From: Spirochaetales bacterium
GTDB lineage: Bacteria; Spirochaetota; Spirochaetia; DSM-27196; SLAA01
Direction of reading: 5' to 3'
NCBI GenBank assembly: GCA_007127105.1
Contig: SLAA01000112.1
Coordinates: 1 to 45,932 of the forward strand
DNA length: 45,932 nucleotides
Shown here: positions 15,665 through 26,179 of the stretch, piece by piece
Numbering within the stretch: position 1 is the stretch's first letter
How the letters are laid out: every line of letters starts with the position of its first letter
Notes under the pieces: generated by a model
Told to the model about the DNA's origin: nothing
What the model saw: the letters and a program-made list of their open reading frames with translations, nothing else
Database searches by the model: none
Translations under genes and position numbers: made by a program

Positions 15665-16766
15665 TTACATAGCATCCCGATTATTTCGCAGATACGCCGT
15701 TATGAACTCATCAATCTCACCGTCCATCACGGCTTGCACGTTGCCGGTTTCCACCTTGGTGCGATGATCCTTGACCATAGTATAGGGTTGAAAGACGTAG
15801 GAGCGTATTTGGTTACCCCACCCGATATCGCGTTTTTCATCTGCCTTTGCGGCGTTCTCTTTGTCTCGCTCAGCACGGTAGTGATCGTAGAGTCGGGAAC
15901 GCAGCATCTTCATGGCCGTGTCACGGTTTTTGTGCTGACTGCGCTCGTTCTGGCACTGAACCACAATTCCGGTTGCAAGGTGCGTCAGCCGAATTGCGGA
16001 GTCGGTCTTATTGACGTGCTGCCCGCCCGCGCCGCTTGCGCGGTAGGTGTCTACACGAAGATCCTCCGGACGAATTTCTACATCGATGTCGTCTTCTATA
16101 ACTGGAGACGCATACACAGACGCAAACGAGGTATGTCGCCTGCCCCCGGAATCAAAGGGCGATATTCGAACTAAACGGTGTATCCCGGTTTCGCAGCGCA
16201 AGTACCCGTAGGCGTTCTCACCCTTGACCTCGATCGTGACCGACTTAATGCCGCCTTCGGCCTCCTGGAGATCAAGAATCGTCGTGGAAAACCTATTACG
16301 TTCCATCCAGCGGCTGTACATGCGAAGCAACATGCTGACCCAGTCACATGCCTCGGTTCCGCCAGCACCGGAGTGTATCGTAAGAAAGGCCGGTGCTACG
16401 TCAAGTTCATCTTGAAAGTACTCGCGCACCATGAGTTTATCAAAGCGTTCCCGAATATCCTTGAGCCCATCCTCAATCTCACGCGCAACACTCTCGTCAC
16501 CTTCCTCGGTGCCGAGGGTCTGGAGGGCCACCAGATCCTCAATCTCATCCTTGAGTTGCGTCCAAGGTTCAATTCGATTCTTGTATCTGGTGAGTTCGCT
16601 GAGAGTCTTTTCGGCCGCGTTGCGGTCGTTCCAGAACTCAGGTTCACCGGTTTTTGTTTCTAAATCCTTAATGAGGGCAGCTACGCGTTCGGGGTCAAAG
16701 CCCCCTCCAGATATCAAGAATTTCCGACTTCAGTTCTGCAATTTTGTCACCAAGATCCGCAAGCAT
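15665..16766 (-). CDS. prfB: Peptide chain release factor 2, with programmed +1 frameshift
   Basis: Class I release factor that reads UGA and UAA and triggers peptide release. The GGQ loop (SGAGGQHVNKT) and the SPF stop-recognition motif (ISPFDSGG) are both present, identifying RF2 rather than RF1. The gene is in two frames. Translation begins at ATG 16766 (MLADLGDKIAEL) with GTGGAGGCAGC upstream, and the first frame ends after 23 codons at CTT TGA. A +1 shift continues at GAC CCC GAA, giving 366 residues, almost the E. coli length. An annotation starting inside the second frame (for example at 16717) would lose the real N-terminus. It is the first gene of the operon running to lolE. Confidence 0.95.
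16694..16709 (-). promoter_or_regulatory. RF2 autoregulatory frameshift site
   Basis: On the minus strand the site reads TGGAGGGGGCTTTGAC. An internal Shine-Dalgarno GGAGG (16708-16704) lies three bases before the slippery CTT (16700-16698), which is followed by the in-frame stop TGA and C. This is the canonical RF2 arrangement: low RF2 lets the ribosome pause at UGAC and slip forward one base, raising RF2 synthesis. Confidence 0.95.
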
Positions 16767-18331: not shown

Positions 18332-20356
18332 CTACTCCGTTTTTAAAGATAACTCAATAAGCAGCTGCTCATCCTCGCCGGGCTTCAACTCAAGCGGAAT
18401 GCGAAAGACCGAACAGCACTGCTGAAAACCCTCAACATAGCCAACCACATCGCGTGAAACCGAGTAGACAGGGTGGCTCCACAGCTCAACCGGAGCGGAC
18501 AACGCTAAACGCACGACCGCACCGTTGAGCAGATCCCTGTAGCGCAACTCCCGAACCTTCTGCACAACCATTTCCTGAGGCCCAATCTCCTGTTTGCTTC
18601 CATCTTCGTGGGCAACATGCACCTCAAGCGCGCGCACAGCATCTGAGGCGAAGGAGAAGTTGTTCTCGCAACCGTAAACACAACTTAGGGCTTCGGTACC
18701 GGTGTTGGAGAAACGGTACTGCACGCGAAGCGTCGCCCCCGAGAAAACGAAACTCTTCTCAACTCGGATAACCACTCCGGGTCGCAGCTCCTGCTCCGCT
18801 ACAAAGGAGAGAGCATGATGTTCCCGGTCTAAATCCTGGACACGATACAGACTGTGTCCTACATCGCAGTACTCCGGCACATCCCCACGGAAGAAACGCT
18901 CAGGGCCGTAGTCCGGCTCCCAGAAATGGTCAACAAAAGTACGCTTCTCGTAGCTATCGTAAATGAACTCTCGTTGTTCAGGATCATGGTACGACTCTTC
19001 CTGCCGACTCAACGTATCAAGATAGTTCATGGAAACCGGCAGGTAATCGAGCTCGAATAATCGCCCGCCACGTTGATGCAGGTAAGCATTAATGCTCTGA
19101 CCCTGGAAGATGTACTCGGCTAGGCCATCCATGTCAAAGTCCACCGAGACAATGGACGAGATAAACACGCCTCGTTCACGAGTGACCTTCTCCGCCTCGA
19201 TAAGAGCAGAGTAAACCTGTTTCCGTAAGTTGTTCCGGTAAATTCCGCCGGGAGGCCCATGCCAGTAGGCACTATGGCACTGTCCGCGCCACAGTTCCTC
19301 ACGCGCCGCTTGCTTTCGGTACTTGTCTCCGCGGATCTGATTCACCAGGATGTGGGTATACTGCATTTTTGCATACATCAGGTTGCTTTCTGGATAGCGA
19401 GCAAGAAACTGCCGGAAGAAGCCTCCGAAGAGATAACCGTTACGTCCTATCCCGTTTTCGACGCTCTCGCTGAGACCTCGAAAACCCTTTTGTTTTGCTG
19501 CAGGCAGAGCCCACAGCATCATGTCCTCGTAAGACGTTGAGGGGAAATATGCACGCTCCCGAGCTTGATCATTCTTCAAATAGCGCCACGGATGTATAGG
19601 CTCAAGCCAGTCCCGATTCTTCTTCACCAGATTGAGAAACCTCGAGAGCCACTCTTCTTCATAGGCAACTCGGTAGCTGTCCGCCGTACCACCCAGCCGC
19701 TCACCCTCATCAAGAATGACCACTACCTTGTTCTCATCCTCACAGGCAAGATCCCGCAGGTGCTGGATCATGTCCTCTGGCGAGTCTTTCAGAAGTTTCC
19801 AGCGTGATGTCTTGCAGATAGGGAAGACGACGACCGTCTTCCCTTGATCCTCGGTGATACAGGGTCGATACAGGTCATCTCCCGAGAGACCAGCCGTAAT
19901 GAAGTGATAGTCAGCGAGAAAGGTGTACTCCATTCCGCTATTACGAAGAGCCGAAGGCAGGGAGGGTTCCCACACAAGTTCAGTTAGCCATGCCCCGCGC
20001 GGCCGCCGCCCAAACTGCTTACGCAGGAAGGTAGTCATGCGTTCAATTTGCCCAAGTCGGTCGGTGTGGGGGATGAGTGGAAGGACCGGATCGTAGAACC
20101 CTCCACCGAGAAACTCTAGCTGCTTACGCGAGGCCATTTCCGAGAGTACATCAATGAATTCCGAATGGTGCTTCTCTAACCACTGGAAAAGCGAACCCGA
20201 ATAGTGAAGGGTTACGGGTATCTCGGGATGATTGTAGAGAGTCCGCACAAAAGGCTTGTATGCCCGCTGATAAATACTCTCAAAGCTTTCATCATCGCTA
20301 CCGAGCGGTTGCGTATTGCTGGTTCCAAATACAAATTTTAAACTCTGCATACTCAT
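18332..20356 (-). CDS. GH57 4-alpha-glucanotransferase-like protein with altered active site
   Basis: Member of glycoside hydrolase family 57, closest by eye to the Thermococcus 4-alpha-glucanotransferase group with its C-terminal beta-sandwich domain. Supporting stretches are FYDPVLPLIPHTDRLGQIE, GAWLTELVWEPSLP with the putative nucleophile Glu126, and AYWHGPPGGIYRNNLRK. Its 674 residues match the family. Two conserved positions differ. The N-terminal HNHQPLG motif reads SNTQPLG (residues 13-19). The HDDGEKFG motif with the acid/base Asp reads LDEGERLG (215-222), with Glu217 in that place. The substrate may not be ordinary maltodextrin. The ATG at 20356 has only a weak Shine-Dalgarno; Met3 is an alternative. 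It has its own promoter and follows the rnf operon on the same strand. Confidence 0.82.
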   Translation of the reverse strand: MSMQSLKFVFGTSNTQPLGSDDESFESIYQRAYKPFVRTLYNHPEIPVTLHYSGSLFQWLEKHHSEFIDVLSEMASRKQLEFLGGGFYDPVLPLIPHTDRLGQIERMTTFLRKQFGRRPRGAWLTELVWEPSLPSALRNSGMEYTFLADYHFITAGLSGDDLYRPCITEDQGKTVVVFPICKTSRWKLLKDSPEDMIQHLRDLACEDENKVVVILDEGERLGGTADSYRVAYEEEWLSRFLNLVKKNRDWLEPIHPWRYLKNDQARERAYFPSTSYEDMMLWALPAAKQKGFRGLSESVENGIGRNGYLFGGFFRQFLARYPESNLMYAKMQYTHILVNQIRGDKYRKQAAREELWRGQCHSAYWHGPPGGIYRNNLRKQVYSALIEAEKVTRERGVFISSIVSVDFDMDGLAEYIFQGQSINAYLHQRGGRLFELDYLPVSMNYLDTLSRQEESYHDPEQREFIYDSYEKRTFVDHFWEPDYGPERFFRGDVPEYCDVGHSLYRVQDLDREHHALSFVAEQELRPGVVIRVEKSFVFSGATLRVQYRFSNTGTEALSCVYGCENNFSFASDAVRALEVHVAHEDGSKQEIGPQEMVVQKVRELRYRDLLNGAVVRLALSAPVELWSHPVYSVSRDVVGYVEGFQQCCSVFRIPLELKPGEDEQLLIELSLKTE

Positions 20357-20452: not shown

Positions 20453-21040
20453 CTAAAACAACGCAGACAGAAAAAAACTATCAAAAGCATGAAAGGCCAT
20501 AGCCATAAGACCGGCACTAATAATGACAATAGGCGTACCACGGAAAGCAGGATGAACCCATTCAGACTCCATATGTTCGCGTATCGCCGAAAGCAACACA
20601 AGTACCAGCATTACCCCGAAACCGGCCCCGAGTGCCGCAGCCATCACCTCGCCAAGGCCAAGGTCAAGGTCTATCACGATCAGGGATAGACCAAAGACGG
20701 CGCAGTTCGCGGCAAAGAGCGGCAGATACTCGTTCATGAGTGCTGCAAACGCCCCTCCTATTCGTTCAGCGCCCACAGCAAAACCTTGTACAACACCTGC
20801 GATGAGCAACAAGAGCACAAAGGTGCGAATCATCGTGAGTCCCAAGGGTTGTAGCACCAGTGAGTCCAGAAACCAGGCCAGCATTGCGGTCAGCACCAAG
20901 ACGAAGCTCAAAACGGCCCCAAAACTCAAGGCGGCGCGGCGATCACGCGAATACTCGAGTGCCGGGCATATGCCGACAAAGTAATACAACACCAGGTTAT
21001 TAACCAATAGAAACTGAAAAACAAGTCCCACAGCACTCAT
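20453..21040 (-). CDS. rnfA: Rnf complex membrane subunit RnfA
   Basis: Small integral membrane subunit (195 residues, six predicted helices) of the Rnf ion-translocating electron-transport complex, homologous to NqrE. The two half-repeat motifs are present: NNLVLYYFVGICPAL with Cys25 and FAANCAVFG with Cys113, the pair that holds a membrane-embedded [2Fe-2S] cluster with the RnfE cysteines. The typical FRGTPIVIISAGLMAMAF C-terminus is also present. The ATG overlaps the rnfE stop (ATGA). It is the last gene of the cluster; in most rnf operons rnfB is adjacent, but here the GH57 gene follows after 96 bases. Confidence 0.93.
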   Translation of the reverse strand: MSAVGLVFQFLLVNNLVLYYFVGICPALEYSRDRRAALSFGAVLSFVLVLTAMLAWFLDSLVLQPLGLTMIRTFVLLLLIAGVVQGFAVGAERIGGAFAALMNEYLPLFAANCAVFGLSLIVIDLDLGLGEVMAAALGAGFGVMLVLVLLSAIREHMESEWVHPAFRGTPIVIISAGLMAMAFHAFDSFFLSALF

Positions 21041-21648
21041 TGACCTGTTTCCTCCGACTCGCTGTTCAGGCGCAGATACGCAACCAGAGCTCGGATATAC
21101 CCAAGAACCAGCAGTGCACCGGCCGCCGTACCAAATATCCGTATTGGCGCCAGTAAGGGCACCTGAACCGAGACCTGGCCCCAGCTCAATCCGCCGGTGC
21201 CAAATATCTCACGAATACCTGCGATGAGGCTCAAGGCCACCAGAAAGGAGAGTCCAGTATACGCTGCCGACAGGGTTGCTTCTCCCGGCCCTTTCCCCGC
21301 CTGTGAGCGGCCCATAAGCCGCAATACTAGACAGTTAACTGCAATGAGGGGTACGAAAACTCCCAGTCGAGCGCGCATTTCCGGATAGGCGATCTCCAGA
21401 AGAATTTCTACAACGGTGGTGAGCGCGGCAATAACCGCCAGCGAGGTTAAGAACGCAGCACGGCCAGAGAGATGCGGGTCAATGATACCCAGCAAGGGTG
21501 CTGCTGCCACAAGCACAAACAAGGTACACAACCCAAGAACCACGCTCTGAGACAGCTGTGTTGTCACAAACAAGGCCGGGCAGAGACCAACAAGCCCAAC
21601 GAAGACTGGATTCTCGCGTAAAGGTGTATCCACTGCAGGACTATCCAT
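21037..21648 (-). CDS. rnfE: Rnf complex membrane subunit RnfE
   Basis: Integral membrane subunit of Rnf, homologous to NqrD and to RnfA. Family motifs are NPVFVGLVGLCPALFVTT with Cys23 and FVPLIAVNCLVL with Cys106, matching the two cysteines that complete the [2Fe-2S] site with RnfA. Six hydrophobic segments are seen across 203 residues. The ATG at 21648 overlaps the end of rnfD by eight bases. In canonical operons rnfG lies between rnfD and rnfE; here they overlap, so there is no room for it. Confidence 0.92.
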   Translation of the reverse strand: MDSPAVDTPLRENPVFVGLVGLCPALFVTTQLSQSVVLGLCTLFVLVAAAPLLGIIDPHLSGRAAFLTSLAVIAALTTVVEILLEIAYPEMRARLGVFVPLIAVNCLVLRLMGRSQAGKGPGEATLSAAYTGLSFLVALSLIAGIREIFGTGGLSWGQVSVQVPLLAPIRIFGTAAGALLVLGYIRALVAYLRLNSESEETGQ

Positions 21649-22738
21649 GCATCTCCCCTTTCACTCGCCGCATGCCAAAAATTCGGGGTGCGGTCAGCCG
21701 GTTAATCAACGGCACACACACGTTCATGACCAGCACCGCGGTAGCGCAGCCCCCGGTATCCATCCCAAAATGGCGAAACAGATACGCCAACACCCCGGCT
21801 CCAACTCCGTACACCCACATACCAAGCCCGGTGTTGGGTGAGGAGGCTGGGTCTGTTGCAAAATAGAACGCTGTCAGGAGAAAGCCTCCGGACAGAACTG
21901 CGAACAGGACATCACCCTCAAATAGACCTAAGCCGTACGGGATGCCCCCAAAGGCACGCGCCATGAAGGCAAATGCAACAAAGAAAGAGGTGGGAATTTG
22001 CCACGCCGCGGTCCCTGAGGCAAGGAGGTACACACTTCCAAGCAGCAGGAGTACGGCCGAAACCTCCCCAATTGCGCCAAGGGTATTTCCGAAGAACAAG
22101 TCCAAATAGCCATGGGGAAGATCTACCCCAATGCGAGAGAACAGCTGCTGATTTACGAAGTCAGTCACCTCTATGTCCAGGGCAGATGTTGGATATCCCG
22201 ATGCACGCAATGCTCCAATAGGGCCAGCACCAGCCGAGCCTGCCTCTACCGTGTCGCGGACAATCCTGAGCGGAGTAGCACCACTCCAGCCTTCGGGAAA
22301 GCCTACCGGCGCAACCCAACGAGACATCTGCTCCGGCCAGCTAATCTGCGCAAACACTCGTGCTCCAAGCGCCGGATTCATCCAGTTGCTGCCGAGGCCA
22401 CCAAAGGTCATTTTTATGACAGCAATGGCAAACACAGCCGCCAGAAAAGGAATAAACACGGGGACACCCGGAGGCATGGAGAGCCCCAGCAGCAGACCTG
22501 TGAGAACCGCGCTTCCGTCCTGCAGCGTTGTTCGCTCTTTATGGATAGTTAGCGCAAACTCAGTAACGCATGCCCCAACAATGGCGGACAGAACTGGGAA
22601 GAGCGCCCCCAGTCCAAAAAGAAAGAGTCCCCAGAAGACTACCGGAAGAAGGCAGATCGACACGCTCCACATCATGCCGTGTGTGGTTAATGCGGAGAAA
22701 AAGAGTGGCCCCTTGTTTGGAACAGCGGTAGAACTCAT
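21641..22738 (-). CDS. rnfD: Rnf complex membrane subunit RnfD
   Basis: Polytopic membrane subunit of Rnf, homologous to NqrB, which normally carries a covalent FMN. The flavin attachment motif is intact as SGATPL (residues 152-157, acceptor Thr155), and GGLGSNWMNPALGARVF is also typical of the family. About ten hydrophobic segments are seen in 365 residues. The start is ATG 22738, overlapping the rnfC stop (ATGA). An upstream in-frame extension to 22864 would overlap rnfC by 130 bases and is not family-like. Attachment of FMN needs an ApbE-type flavin transferase, which is not in this window. Confidence 0.92.
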   Translation of the reverse strand: MSSTAVPNKGPLFFSALTTHGMMWSVSICLLPVVFWGLFLFGLGALFPVLSAIVGACVTEFALTIHKERTTLQDGSAVLTGLLLGLSMPPGVPVFIPFLAAVFAIAVIKMTFGGLGSNWMNPALGARVFAQISWPEQMSRWVAPVGFPEGWSGATPLRIVRDTVEAGSAGAGPIGALRASGYPTSALDIEVTDFVNQQLFSRIGVDLPHGYLDLFFGNTLGAIGEVSAVLLLLGSVYLLASGTAAWQIPTSFFVAFAFMARAFGGIPYGLGLFEGDVLFAVLSGGFLLTAFYFATDPASSPNTGLGMWVYGVGAGVLAYLFRHFGMDTGGCATAVLVMNVCVPLINRLTAPRIFGMRRVKGEMHG

Positions 22739-24093
22739 GCTTGATTCCCGAACTGCGGGTTCTGAGGCTCGGCCCCATAGTCCAGAAGGTGCTCGGACTT
22801 TGCCTCCGCTATGCTTTGCATGAGAGGTATTCGGGAAGGGCAGACATGGGAGCAACACCCGCATTCGGTACAGGCATTCAGCCCTTCAGCCTCGGCCTTT
22901 GATTGCTGGGCATGTTCAATAAGCTTATAGAGGCGTTGCGGTTCGAGCCCCATAGGACAGGCTCGCACGCATCGGCCACAACTAATGCAGCTGCGACGCT
23001 CAGCAGCACGAATCTCGGAGCGAGTGAGTACGAGAATTCCCCTTGTTGTCTTGGTGACAGGAGTCTCAAGGTCGGTCACCTCAAATCCGGTCAGAGGATC
23101 TCCAGACACAATCCGCACCGACGGGGCCACTATCCCGCCACATTCATCTATGACCTCGCGGAAGGTGGTACCAAGACGCACCTTGACGTTCCCCGGCCGG
23201 GCAATACCGCCGCCAGCAACCGTCACAACACGCTCTACGCACGGTTTACCAAACAACACGGCCTCTGCCGTCGCATATGCGGTTGCCGCACCAAGTACAA
23301 AACAGGACAGCTCACGCTCATCCTTGCCGTAGGGAATCTCTTTGCGCTGCACCGACCTGAGCAGTTGAGGCACTGCAGACTGCGGGTATTTGGTTCCAAC
23401 CTCAAGGACTCGGGCCAGAGACTCCCGCTTGCTGAGTTCGCGGCGCAAACTGCGGACAGCCGCCTTTTTGTCGGCACCAATAGCAAAAACCACGTCGTCG
23501 GTATGAAGCAAATGGGCAACAATCTCAGCGCCGGTGACGAGCTCTGCACAGTGCTCCTGTAGCAGCCTATCCTCGGAACTGAGGTAAGGGCCAGACTCAG
23601 CACCGTTTACAACAACGCGGCTGACACCCGCTCTTCGCGCAAACTGTAGGCTGCGATGCAGCGGATGCGGATTCCCGCTGAGCTCCACAACACCAAGATC
23701 ACGAAGCAGAGTAACCACGTCTTTGCGCGGCATACTCCGCCAATCACGCGCCTCAAGATCCTTGCCCAGTTTGGAAAAGGCGCCCGAGAGCTCAATGACT
23801 ACCGCCTCACACTCACCGCACTCCGGTACCGTGATTGTACGAATTCTCCTGACAATGCCGGGAACGGGCGCATGAACATGAGCCCCATCAGATGGCGCCC
23901 GACCAATGAGCATTCCCTCGGTAACCCGACTGCCTGGTTCAACTAACCGTTCGCAGCCTGGCCCCAGATGCTGGCGCAAAGGCACAATACAGATAGGTGG
24001 AATTGCGGAGTTCCAAATTGCTCCGTCTCGCGTGCGGTCTTTATCGTCATGTGGATGTATGCCACCCTTGGGGAAGCTTCGGACTATGGTCAT
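22735..24093 (-). CDS. rnfC: RnfC-like iron-sulfur subunit with degenerate flavin/NADH motifs
   Basis: Peripheral subunit of Rnf, usually the NADH-oxidising entry point. The N-terminal FPKGGIHPHDDK and the barrel-like domain (GMLIGRAP, VHAPVPGIVRRI) are typical. Two complete ferredoxin motifs are present: Cys369/372/375/379 and Cys408/411/414/418. The nucleotide-binding half is eroded. The glycine-rich GLGGAxFPT loop reads ELSGNPHPL (137-145), GAECEPY reads GAESGPY (164-170), and TKYPQGGEKQL reads TKYPQSAVPQL (234-244). NADH or FMN binding is therefore doubtful. The 452-residue length is normal. The ATG at 24093 overlaps the stop of the 521-residue membrane protein (ATGA), so the two are translationally coupled. 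Confidence 0.88.
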   Translation of the reverse strand: MTIVRSFPKGGIHPHDDKDRTRDGAIWNSAIPPICIVPLRQHLGPGCERLVEPGSRVTEGMLIGRAPSDGAHVHAPVPGIVRRIRTITVPECGECEAVVIELSGAFSKLGKDLEARDWRSMPRKDVVTLLRDLGVVELSGNPHPLHRSLQFARRAGVSRVVVNGAESGPYLSSEDRLLQEHCAELVTGAEIVAHLLHTDDVVFAIGADKKAAVRSLRRELSKRESLARVLEVGTKYPQSAVPQLLRSVQRKEIPYGKDERELSCFVLGAATAYATAEAVLFGKPCVERVVTVAGGGIARPGNVKVRLGTTFREVIDECGGIVAPSVRIVSGDPLTGFEVTDLETPVTKTTRGILVLTRSEIRAAERRSCISCGRCVRACPMGLEPQRLYKLIEHAQQSKAEAEGLNACTECGCCSHVCPSRIPLMQSIAEAKSEHLLDYGAEPQNPQFGNQA

Positions 24094-25655
24094 ACTACTT
24101 CGACGTTCCTTCGTTTGTAGAACAGTTGGGTGACTCGGTCACCTTTCTCGAGTGTCGGGAATAGTGCCCCAATGCGGAGCACTGCGGGCACGAGCAAAAG
24201 TAACACGGCAGGAACTACGCTGCGAATCAGTTCCGACCGCGCCCAGTATACGTGTCGAACCGGGCGGTACTCAACCCCGTTTGGCAAACCTGCCGCCAGC
24301 AACAACGACTCTATACCCAGATGCTGGTTCTCGCGTATCGCGTCAAGCTCGCCAGCAATCCAATCCTCGTCAAAGCTGAAAGCCACCCGGTCCCGCCGCT
24401 CAATTCGACCGTTGTTTCGCTCAAACTCCGGAATGCGCAGGTCTTCTCCTCGTTCCGGCAGCCGGAACTCCCAGCCGTACATGAAGGCCTGTTGGAAGGC
24501 CCGATGCGCAAGAAAATCCTCAATTGTAGGAAGCTGCTTCTCGTCCACGGAGTTCACCATCATGTCACTGTCCTCGGTTGTTCGCACCGGTTGAGGCAAG
24601 GATGGAAGGCTCAGCTCACTTTCGGAGCTGGCCGCCGGAATAAGCAGCACGACCAACAGGGCTCCCAATGGGGCCATATAGAGCTCGCGTGGAAGCCTGC
24701 GCGGCCGGAGCCGTCGTGGCAGTATGGCTATCGGCTCAAACACGCCGTGTTCGCGAATGGCTCTGCGGCGGCGCTCGACCGCAATCCCGGCAGTAGTCGC
24801 GGCACCGACGCCTACCAGTGTCAGAAGCAGACCCAGGAGGGCTCGCGGTGAGTACCACAGAACTATGCCTGAGGCCACCATCCCTGCAACCGCCAGATAT
24901 GGAGTCAGGAATCGAGGCCGAACACCGACTCCTGAAGCGGAACTGAACGCCGTGCCTCGGCTGCCGCCAGCACCATAGGCGCCCAGAATACCCGGATAGG
25001 ACATCACCCACGCCAGGTACACCAGCATCCCGGCAGCCGCACCAAAGGGGTCACCAGTTCGTAGTGTTGCCAGAATGAGGGGGAGTCCGGCGGCAAGCAC
25101 AAAGGGCGAGCGACTCCGTGAGCAGAGGATTGACCCGACTACGGCACACAGTACCAAGATAGGCAACAGCACGCTGTCCGGGACCCCTGTGTCGGCACTC
25201 AGGAGCGGCACTCCCCGCTCCTGCATAGTCGGGCCAATGCGTTCCATGAGCGTCGCGGCGTCACCTGGAACGTAGATGACGTGGTAGGTCTCACCTTCCT
25301 GCTGAACCTGGAAGTAGTTCACCACACTCTGCATGTAGGGATCTAGACGAGGATCTCGTCTATCGAACCGGGACTCGAGATCGGAAAGCTTAACGGTTGC
25401 CAGGGGGCCGAAATCATTGTACCAAAAGCGCGTCGTCTCCGCGCCAACATAGGAATGCACTCCAGCCGAGTTCAGGGCGGAACTCAGCTCGGCGAGGTCG
25501 TAGGAGCCATGCACCACAAAGGTCGCATATCCCGGCCAGATACTGTCGCCCCCCCCTGCCGGGCTGAGCGCTCTTGTTCCAACCAGTACGAGCAGCAAGA
25601 CCACCATGGACAGGACGAAAAGTTGTTGAGGGCCTCGGCTTTCTACGTTTTTCAT
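24090..25655 (-). CDS. Unrecognised multi-pass membrane protein coupled to rnfC
   Basis: I do not recognise a family. The 521 residues hold an N-terminal helix (about 11-29), then a hydrophilic domain to about 160 (YATFVVHGSYDLAELSSALN, a ferredoxin-like beta-alpha rhythm). A cluster of helices follows at about 161-178, 184-200, 203-220, 252-268, 273-292 and 327-341. A second hydrophilic domain spans 345-475, and a last helix 477-497 leads to a basic tail. There are no CxxC pairs, no SGAT flavinylation motif and no heme CxxCH, so it is not a disguised RnfG or RnfB. It lies 44 bases after the DUF212 gene and overlaps rnfC by four bases. A role as an Rnf partner is inference from this coupling. 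ATG 25655 has only a weak ribosome site. Confidence 0.72.
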   Translation of the reverse strand: MKNVESRGPQQLFVLSMVVLLLVLVGTRALSPAGGGDSIWPGYATFVVHGSYDLAELSSALNSAGVHSYVGAETTRFWYNDFGPLATVKLSDLESRFDRRDPRLDPYMQSVVNYFQVQQEGETYHVIYVPGDAATLMERIGPTMQERGVPLLSADTGVPDSVLLPILVLCAVVGSILCSRSRSPFVLAAGLPLILATLRTGDPFGAAAGMLVYLAWVMSYPGILGAYGAGGSRGTAFSSASGVGVRPRFLTPYLAVAGMVASGIVLWYSPRALLGLLLTLVGVGAATTAGIAVERRRRAIREHGVFEPIAILPRRLRPRRLPRELYMAPLGALLVVLLIPAASSESELSLPSLPQPVRTTEDSDMMVNSVDEKQLPTIEDFLAHRAFQQAFMYGWEFRLPERGEDLRIPEFERNNGRIERRDRVAFSFDEDWIAGELDAIRENQHLGIESLLLAAGLPNGVEYRPVRHVYWARSELIRSVVPAVLLLLVPAVLRIGALFPTLEKGDRVTQLFYKRRNVEVV

Positions 25656-25699: not shown

Positions 25700-26179
25700 T
25701 TAGAGAATACTAAACGCAACCGCGATAAAGAACCCAAGGAGCATCCCTACCGAAACCTCAGCGACGGTATGCCCGTTAACTTCGCGAACCGGACTGAACT
25801 CAATTCCGTAGCGCCTGTTCAGCTCAGTTCCCAGCTTGTTGAGACTTTGCGCCTGCACCCCGGCGGCACGCCGAACTCCAAGTGCATCCCGAATCACCAG
25901 CAAACTGAATACCAGCGAGATGCTGAACAGCGGGTCGCCCACTCCGTACTCAAAACCAACCGCCGTCGCCATTGCCGTTACGGTTGATGAATGACTGGAC
26001 GGCATTCCTCCCGTCTTCCAAAACAGTGTGACCATAAGATCACGAGAGTTCCGCGAACGTTGCTTAACGGCCTCGATCAGAGCCTTCAGAATCTGTGCAA
26101 CGAACCAACTGAAGAACGCTGACAGGAACAGCGGGCTTCTAAAGAGTTCGTACAAGTAGTCAACAGCAGGCGGTCGCAT
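25700..26179 (-). CDS. Divergent PAP2-family (DUF212, YuiD-like) membrane protein
   Basis: Small membrane protein of the DUF212 group, distantly related to PAP2 phosphatases and vanadium haloperoxidases. The core motif KTGGMPSSHSSTVTAM is intact, as are RDALGVRRAAGVQ and the C-terminal NGHTVAEVSVG with its histidine. At 159 residues it has the usual length and four or five helices. Possible substrates are lipid or isoprenoid phosphates; none is proven for the family. It is the first gene of the unit leading into the 521-residue protein and rnfCDEA. The ATG at 26179 has no Shine-Dalgarno, and a promoter is placed so that the mRNA would be leaderless. Confidence 0.85.
   Translation of the reverse strand: MRPPAVDYLYELFRSPLFLSAFFSWFVAQILKALIEAVKQRSRNSRDLMVTLFWKTGGMPSSHSSTVTAMATAVGFEYGVGDPLFSISLVFSLLVIRDALGVRRAAGVQAQSLNKLGTELNRRYGIEFSPVREVNGHTVAEVSVGMLLGFFIAVAFSIL

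Follow-up and report, generated by a model that had tools for sequence, protein, structure and literature searches.

An eroded rnf gene cluster with an unfamiliar membrane protein in a Spirochaetales genome

The DNA analyzed here (the window; 45,932 nucleotides, contig C237) belongs to a Spirochaetales genome assembly (G000) of 3.08 Mb that is 90% complete; among named genomes, the Spirochaetaceae MAG PLM2.Bin37 (L090) was the closest relative found. On its minus strand, the window holds a five-gene cluster that encodes a 521-residue membrane protein, U521 (positions 24090..25655), followed by homologues of RnfC (22735..24093), RnfD (21641..22738), RnfE (21037..21648) and RnfA (20453..21040). 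Successive genes overlap by 4, 4, 8 and 4 bases; the RnfD start at 22738 was set by an ATGA overlap with the rnfC stop, and the mechanical ORF begins earlier, at 22864. Upstream lies a DUF212 (divergent PAP2) gene (25700..26179, minus strand), a conserved flank that adjoins U at nearly all loci, and downstream a GH57 glucanotransferase-like gene (18332..20356, minus strand), also conserved. A prfB-like gene is found nearby (15665-16717). Neither rnfG nor rnfB is present in the cluster, in which RnfD and RnfE overlap and GH57 comes after RnfA; the ORF coordinates thus bear out an earlier note on this DNA as to the gene order, the overlaps of 4–8 bases and the lack of room for either gene. Two congeneric genomes carry this cluster with the same changes (L021, and L022, which ends at a contig edge), and the cluster is therefore not a chance arrangement.

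Profile searches place the four Rnf-like proteins with differing firmness. The RnfC homologue has a barrel-sandwich, Nuo51-like and SLBB composition with two 4Fe-4S motifs (Pfam Complex1_51K, RnfC_N, SLBB and 4Fe-4S) and scores 361 bits in NCBIfam, above the rnfC subfamily cut-off. RnfD, matched by Pfam NQR2_RnfD_RnfE, is likewise above its cut-off at 228 bits. RnfE and RnfA are both matched by Pfam Rnf-Nqr but stay below the NCBIfam cut-offs (106 bits versus 213 for rnfE and 138 versus 229 for rnfA).

The cofactor sites of these proteins, called from automatic alignments on which the motif assignments depend, are unevenly preserved. In RnfC, the GLGGAxFPT loop has become ELSGNPHPL, ECEP has become ESGP and YPQGxEKQ has become YPQSAVPQ. 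These three changes, described previously, are real, and the alignment adds a fourth in the FMN site, where NNVGT (NNxGT) is replaced by LGAAT; displaced copies of the four RnfC FMN/NAD motifs were not found elsewhere in the aligned protein. All eight Fe–S cysteines of RnfC are present, as are the SGAT sequence for covalent FMN and the riboflavin-site N and D residues of RnfD, and all four [2Fe-2S] cysteines, two each in RnfA and RnfE. The earlier description of the two 4Fe-4S motifs, the RnfD SGAT and the RnfA/RnfE cysteines is therefore confirmed, and the retained RnfA/E cysteines and RnfD SGAT argue that some redox chemistry persists in the window lineage. In Acetobacterium woodii, electrons pass from ferredoxin to RnfB, the RnfA/E [2Fe-2S] cluster, the RnfG FMN, the RnfD FMN and riboflavin, the RnfC 4Fe-4S clusters, the RnfC FMN and finally NAD+, and mutants affected in any one of three sites, the flavin of RnfG, the A/E cluster and the riboflavin site, are inactive (PMC11889175). 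Because three steps of this chain are absent from the window cluster, namely the RnfB entry, the RnfG bridge from A/E to RnfD and the RnfC FMN/NAD site, it has no ferredoxin-to-NAD+ route of its own, and ferredoxin:NAD+ reduction by it is excluded unless subunits are borrowed.

The first protein of the cluster, U521, is modeled with ~8 TM helices and two periplasmic α/β domains in the order TM1-domain-TM2..6-TM7-domain-TM8. Searches of Pfam, NCBIfam, PDB sequences and phage sequences returned no family or match over cut-off, and no RND profile in Pfam or NCBIfam was matched in a scan of 46 members. No FMN_bind domain was found with the same two libraries, and SGAT is absent from all 108 U sequences. 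Judged by these sequences, U is a new family, and the earlier picture of an undescribed, divergent Rnf-like system with an unfamiliar membrane protein is right. Models were obtained for U521 (pLDDT 73) and, with AlphaFold2, for an orthologue at locus L136 (pLDDT 88). With foldseek, nearly all top PDB fold matches of the orthologue model belong to the RND superfamily (MtrD, with the best E value of 9e-5, MmpL3, CmeB and SecDF), and the model of U521 itself gives a weaker version of this result. U thus resembles the RND superfamily, including SecDF and MmpL, in fold matches and in the order of helices and domains, but differs in having only ~8 TM helices, no sequence match and low global TM-scores of 0.2–0.3 (below 0.3). 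The RND-like fold of U is accordingly offered as a lead from the models, not as membership.

Of 46 genomes of the order, 40 carry U, and it adjoins rnfG at every locus with an intact RnfC FMN site (19/19). At L070 and L082-L087, U stands between DUF212 and GH57, or by DUF212, without any rnf gene; its retention there indicates that U does something that does not depend on this rnf remnant. The proposal that the new protein replaces RnfG does not survive these observations: U was rejected as a substitute since it sits beside RnfG in intact operons, carries no flavin motif and looks RND-like in its modeled fold.

The window cluster is not the only Rnf of its cell. Contig C157 (L020) of the same assembly carries a full RseC-rnfB-C-D-G-E-A operon with every motif intact; rnfG, rnfB and a second, normal rnfC thus occur elsewhere in the genome, a situation that the earlier note had itself named as one that would refute it. 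The window cluster is consequently a second system in a cell with an ordinary Rnf, and the earlier note's conclusion that electron entry must differ, which takes the cluster for the cell's Rnf, falls away. The membrane core subunits of the two systems are only 32–34% identical. No ApbE flavin transferase was found in the assembly, although it may lie in the missing 10%; this absence contrasts with the RnfG and SGAT-bearing FMN_bind proteins that the genome encodes. A third Rnf-like system is located at contig ends (C92, L028:2-2253; C22, L030:3-1361, minus strand) and comprises an RnfD-FMN_bind fusion, RnfE/RnfA-like proteins that have no cluster cysteines and a further protein in which FMN_bind/SGAT is repeated four times. 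Related sets with an intact RnfC are found at L206, L208, L210 and L213 (and L201). This third system is possibly a flavin-only extracellular electron-transfer complex.

To place the window cluster in context, the U-bearing loci of the order were read together with 80 named loci for which the neighboring GH57 gene served as anchor, since the broad U alignment has no stretch conserved enough to scan with. The ancestral arrangement is DUF212-U-rnfC-D-G-E-A-B-GH57, which 17 of the sampled loci hold in full. Complete loci with both the RnfC motifs and the A/E cysteines include L059, L060, L069, L109, L112, L114, L118, L121, L125, L132, L136, L139, L140, L145, L147 and others. With synteny unchanged, B is lost and G diverged at L061, L064 and L065; the window and L021 are reduced in place to U-C-D-E-A; a neighboring genus (L023-L027) keeps U-C-D and has lost E, A and the RnfD SGAT; and at L070, L085 and L087 only U is left. 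Among 88 non-redundant loci, many of them from draft MAGs, the RnfC Fe–S cysteines are retained wherever scored (84/84), in contrast to the RnfC FMN site (19/84), the RnfD SGAT (38/88) and the RnfA/E cysteines (27/69); the riboflavin-site residues of RnfD are widely kept (N in 77/88 and D in 79/88). An rnfB-like polyferredoxin is retained at L131, L133, L152-L154, L227, L231 and L233 despite cofactor-site losses in C, D, E and A. On the tree of the GH57 flank, the intact/lost state takes 5 changes, of which at least 2 are forced by supported branches. As this comparison of loci indicates, the window cluster is one stage in a spirochaete-wide erosion of the organisms' own rnf operon.

This erosion accompanies the presence of another Rnf. 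Within the order, a strong second RnfC was detected in all 34 U-bearing genomes with an eroded or rnf-less locus, fragmentary cases being left out, and in none of the 3 genomes with an intact locus. Outside the order, a second strong RnfC occurs in 10/14 genomes with an eroded locus, compared with 2/14 with an intact one; the remaining 4/14 eroded genomes are draft MAGs. The 16 unlinked second operons that were examined all proved complete, and in the RnfD tree the unlinked copies form one clade with the third type, apart from the U-linked copies (100). Reading this tree as one old divergence of intact from eroded copies is disfavored, because the eroded rows are long-branched and the flank tree needs several losses. 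The second-copy counts together with the changes on the flank tree point to recurrent loss that goes with having a second Rnf. When the window is compared with L021, at synonymous distances of 0.5–1.2, dN/dS is 0.08 for C, 0.05 for D, 0.09 for E, 0.06 for A and 0.18 for U, and 0.02 for the flanks. By this measure, the proteins of the window cluster look functional and under purifying selection rather than decaying.

The loss of cofactor sites has gone further in Treponema and Borrelia-like relatives. All 20 Treponemataceae loci sampled have lost the RnfC FMN motifs and the RnfD SGAT but keep the RnfC cysteines; none has an RnfA/E pair with its four cysteines, and the gene that takes the place of rnfG was not recognized as RnfG. 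ORFs filling the rnfG gap at other Treponema loci are devoid of SGAT. Apart from the 4Fe-4S cysteines of RnfC and some of the riboflavin site of RnfD, these 20 loci and genome G329 keep little. A family-wide search with a Treponema-type RnfC profile gave matches in 194 of 200 genomes, most with E below 1e-100. Of 26 Treponema-type loci, 5 hold the stripped rnf set with no U detected; some of these 5 are fragments of contigs. In genome G329 (1,139,633 bases), only one RnfC locus was found (L228), with the order pseudouridine synthase-DUF212-RnfC-RnfD-(G-like)-E-A-GH57. By inspection, its RnfC cysteine motifs are present, RnfD, E and A are without flavin or [2Fe-2S] sites, no RnfG flavin motif is recognizable and U is absent. 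From a gene order like that reported for Treponema pallidum, G329 would be T. pallidum or a very close relative. In three Borrelia-like genomes (L218-L220; main chromosomes of 0.91–0.93 Mb), by size and neighbors presumably Borreliaceae, U accompanies an RnfC-RnfD fusion of 768–772 residues in which no CxxCxxC motif was found, and an RnfA-like protein was detected in two of the three. At L218, U is followed by the fusion and then by prfB.

An origin of the window cluster from the spirochaetes' own rnf operon, with loss of the ferredoxin:NAD function, is very probable from these comparisons. What the cluster became is less certain. We give slightly better than an even chance to a redox-stripped, repurposed Rnf membrane scaffold that is kept by selection beside a separate, complete Rnf. 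The membrane scaffold of RnfD, E and A would remain, with RnfC docked on its cytoplasmic side, as a module that conducts ions, or is coupled to them, through conformational change. The RnfC 4Fe-4S pair and the RnfD flavins of the window lineage may gate it, either by sensing redox state reversibly or by carrying electrons a short way; the scaffold may also couple to the RND-like U, whose periplasmic domains would do the outside work. These particulars, from assembly and ion movement to the coupling of U with the Rnf proteins, are tentative, and we hold this specific mechanism to be less likely than not. Since relatives dispense with the cofactors, and the Borrelia-like ones even with Fe–S, the simplest view is that the RnfD/E/A scaffold with RnfC, and possibly U, has been conserved for an ion-coupled task outside redox chemistry; such relatives suggest that the retained role needs no redox. 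Three observations sit less easily with a repurposed scaffold: U and the rnf remnant can occur apart (L070, L082-L087 and the 5 of 26 Treponema-type loci), a strong second RnfC was not detected in 4/14 eroded genomes outside the order, all draft MAGs, and the window lineage has held on to its RnfA/E cysteines and the SGAT of RnfD.

An alternative for this lineage is a short transmembrane conduit, in which ferredoxin or flavodoxin as cytoplasmic donor passes electrons through the RnfC 4Fe-4S clusters and the RnfD riboflavin and FMN to the periplasmic side and an external flavoprotein. The window lineage retains all of these RnfC and RnfD sites, the corresponding cofactors line up in the A. woodii and Clostridium tetanomorphum complexes (PMC11889175, PMC9588780), and the four-FMN_bind-repeat protein is a possible acceptor. 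We nevertheless regard a conduit as unlikely: the neighboring genus kept U-C-D after losing the RnfD SGAT, E and A, the Treponema and Borrelia-like relatives lost more sites, and no ApbE to flavinylate RnfD was found in the 90% complete assembly. Because relatives at the same locus lose the remaining cofactors successively, direct transfer from ferredoxin to RnfC, as once suggested for this cluster, cannot be the general role. A hybrid complex, in which the window subunits would join RnfB, RnfG and perhaps RnfC of the canonical Rnf as an alternative isoform, is less probable still. A full canonical set does exist in every examined genome of the order with an eroded locus, but the window RnfC would remain without FMN, the divergence of the membrane core subunits from the canonical ones is large and some relatives keep the eroded set with no strong second RnfC found.

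A functionless, decaying relic, redundant beside the second Rnf, would account for the loss of subunits and motifs in many lineages, within the order always alongside a second Rnf. It is disfavored, and improbable, in view of the low dN/dS values at appreciable synonymous distances, the eight Fe–S cysteines intact at 84/84 loci and the retention of the locus in small Treponema- and Borrelia-type genomes as the sole Rnf-like locus found there. Least probable of all is an energy-conserving Rnf with a new electron entry and with U in place of RnfG. Although U is contiguous with rnfC and G and B are absent, U stands beside RnfG wherever the RnfC FMN site is intact, shows no flavin motif and resembles RND proteins in its modeled fold.

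A repurposed scaffold bears on the energy metabolism of T. pallidum, for which a flavin-dependent Rnf pump is part of the current answer to how energy is conserved beyond glycolysis (PMC7512555). The gene tp0151 has been assigned to an Rnf complex that oxidizes flavodoxin and builds an ion gradient (PMC11371664, PMC7512555). In T. pallidum, TPASS_0154 is a pseudouridine synthase, 0153 an acid-phosphatase/PAP2-like protein and 0151 RnfD (PMC4403809), an order that matches that of the window and the synteny of L228. L228 is stripped further than the window cluster, having no RnfD SGAT, A/E cysteines, recognizable RnfG flavin motif or U. The proposed T. pallidum Rnf pump appears to belong to this eroded locus type, which the literature treats as a working flavodoxin-driven pump. 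On sequence evidence, the T. pallidum-type locus lacks nearly every electron-transfer site, which argues against a flavodoxin-oxidizing ion-gradient pump, and the energy pump assumed in the stripped relatives is probably not one. The broader proposition, that spirochaetes including Treponema and Borrelia carry a redox-dead Rnf descendant that has turned into membrane machinery without a redox role, in most cases alongside an RND-like protein, and that the one in T. pallidum has been mistaken for a flavodoxin-driven pump, has in our estimate an even chance. The sequence comparison also points to testable genes of unassigned function in Borrelia.

Compared with canonical Rnf (A. woodii, C. tetanomorphum and C157), the window cluster shares homologous RnfC, D, E and A with the 4Fe-4S motifs, SGAT, riboflavin residues and A/E cysteines; it differs in lacking RnfB, RnfG and the RnfC FMN/NAD site, in its extra U gene and in RnfE and RnfA that fall under the family cut-offs. 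Na+-NQR offers a parallel. NqrA has been proposed to originate from RnfC once rnfB and the cofactor sites of RnfC had been lost (PMC4014512), and the window cluster has likewise lost rnfB and the RnfC FMN/NAD site. In contrast to NqrA, which lost them, the window RnfC keeps its eight 4Fe-4S cysteines; the cluster also has no homologue of NqrC/RnfG and no NqrF-like ORF within it. By these differences, the window cluster is a separate remodeling parallel to Nqr, and it would be a second natural case, besides Nqr, of an Rnf rebuilt after the loss of RnfB, with many intermediates preserved in living genomes.
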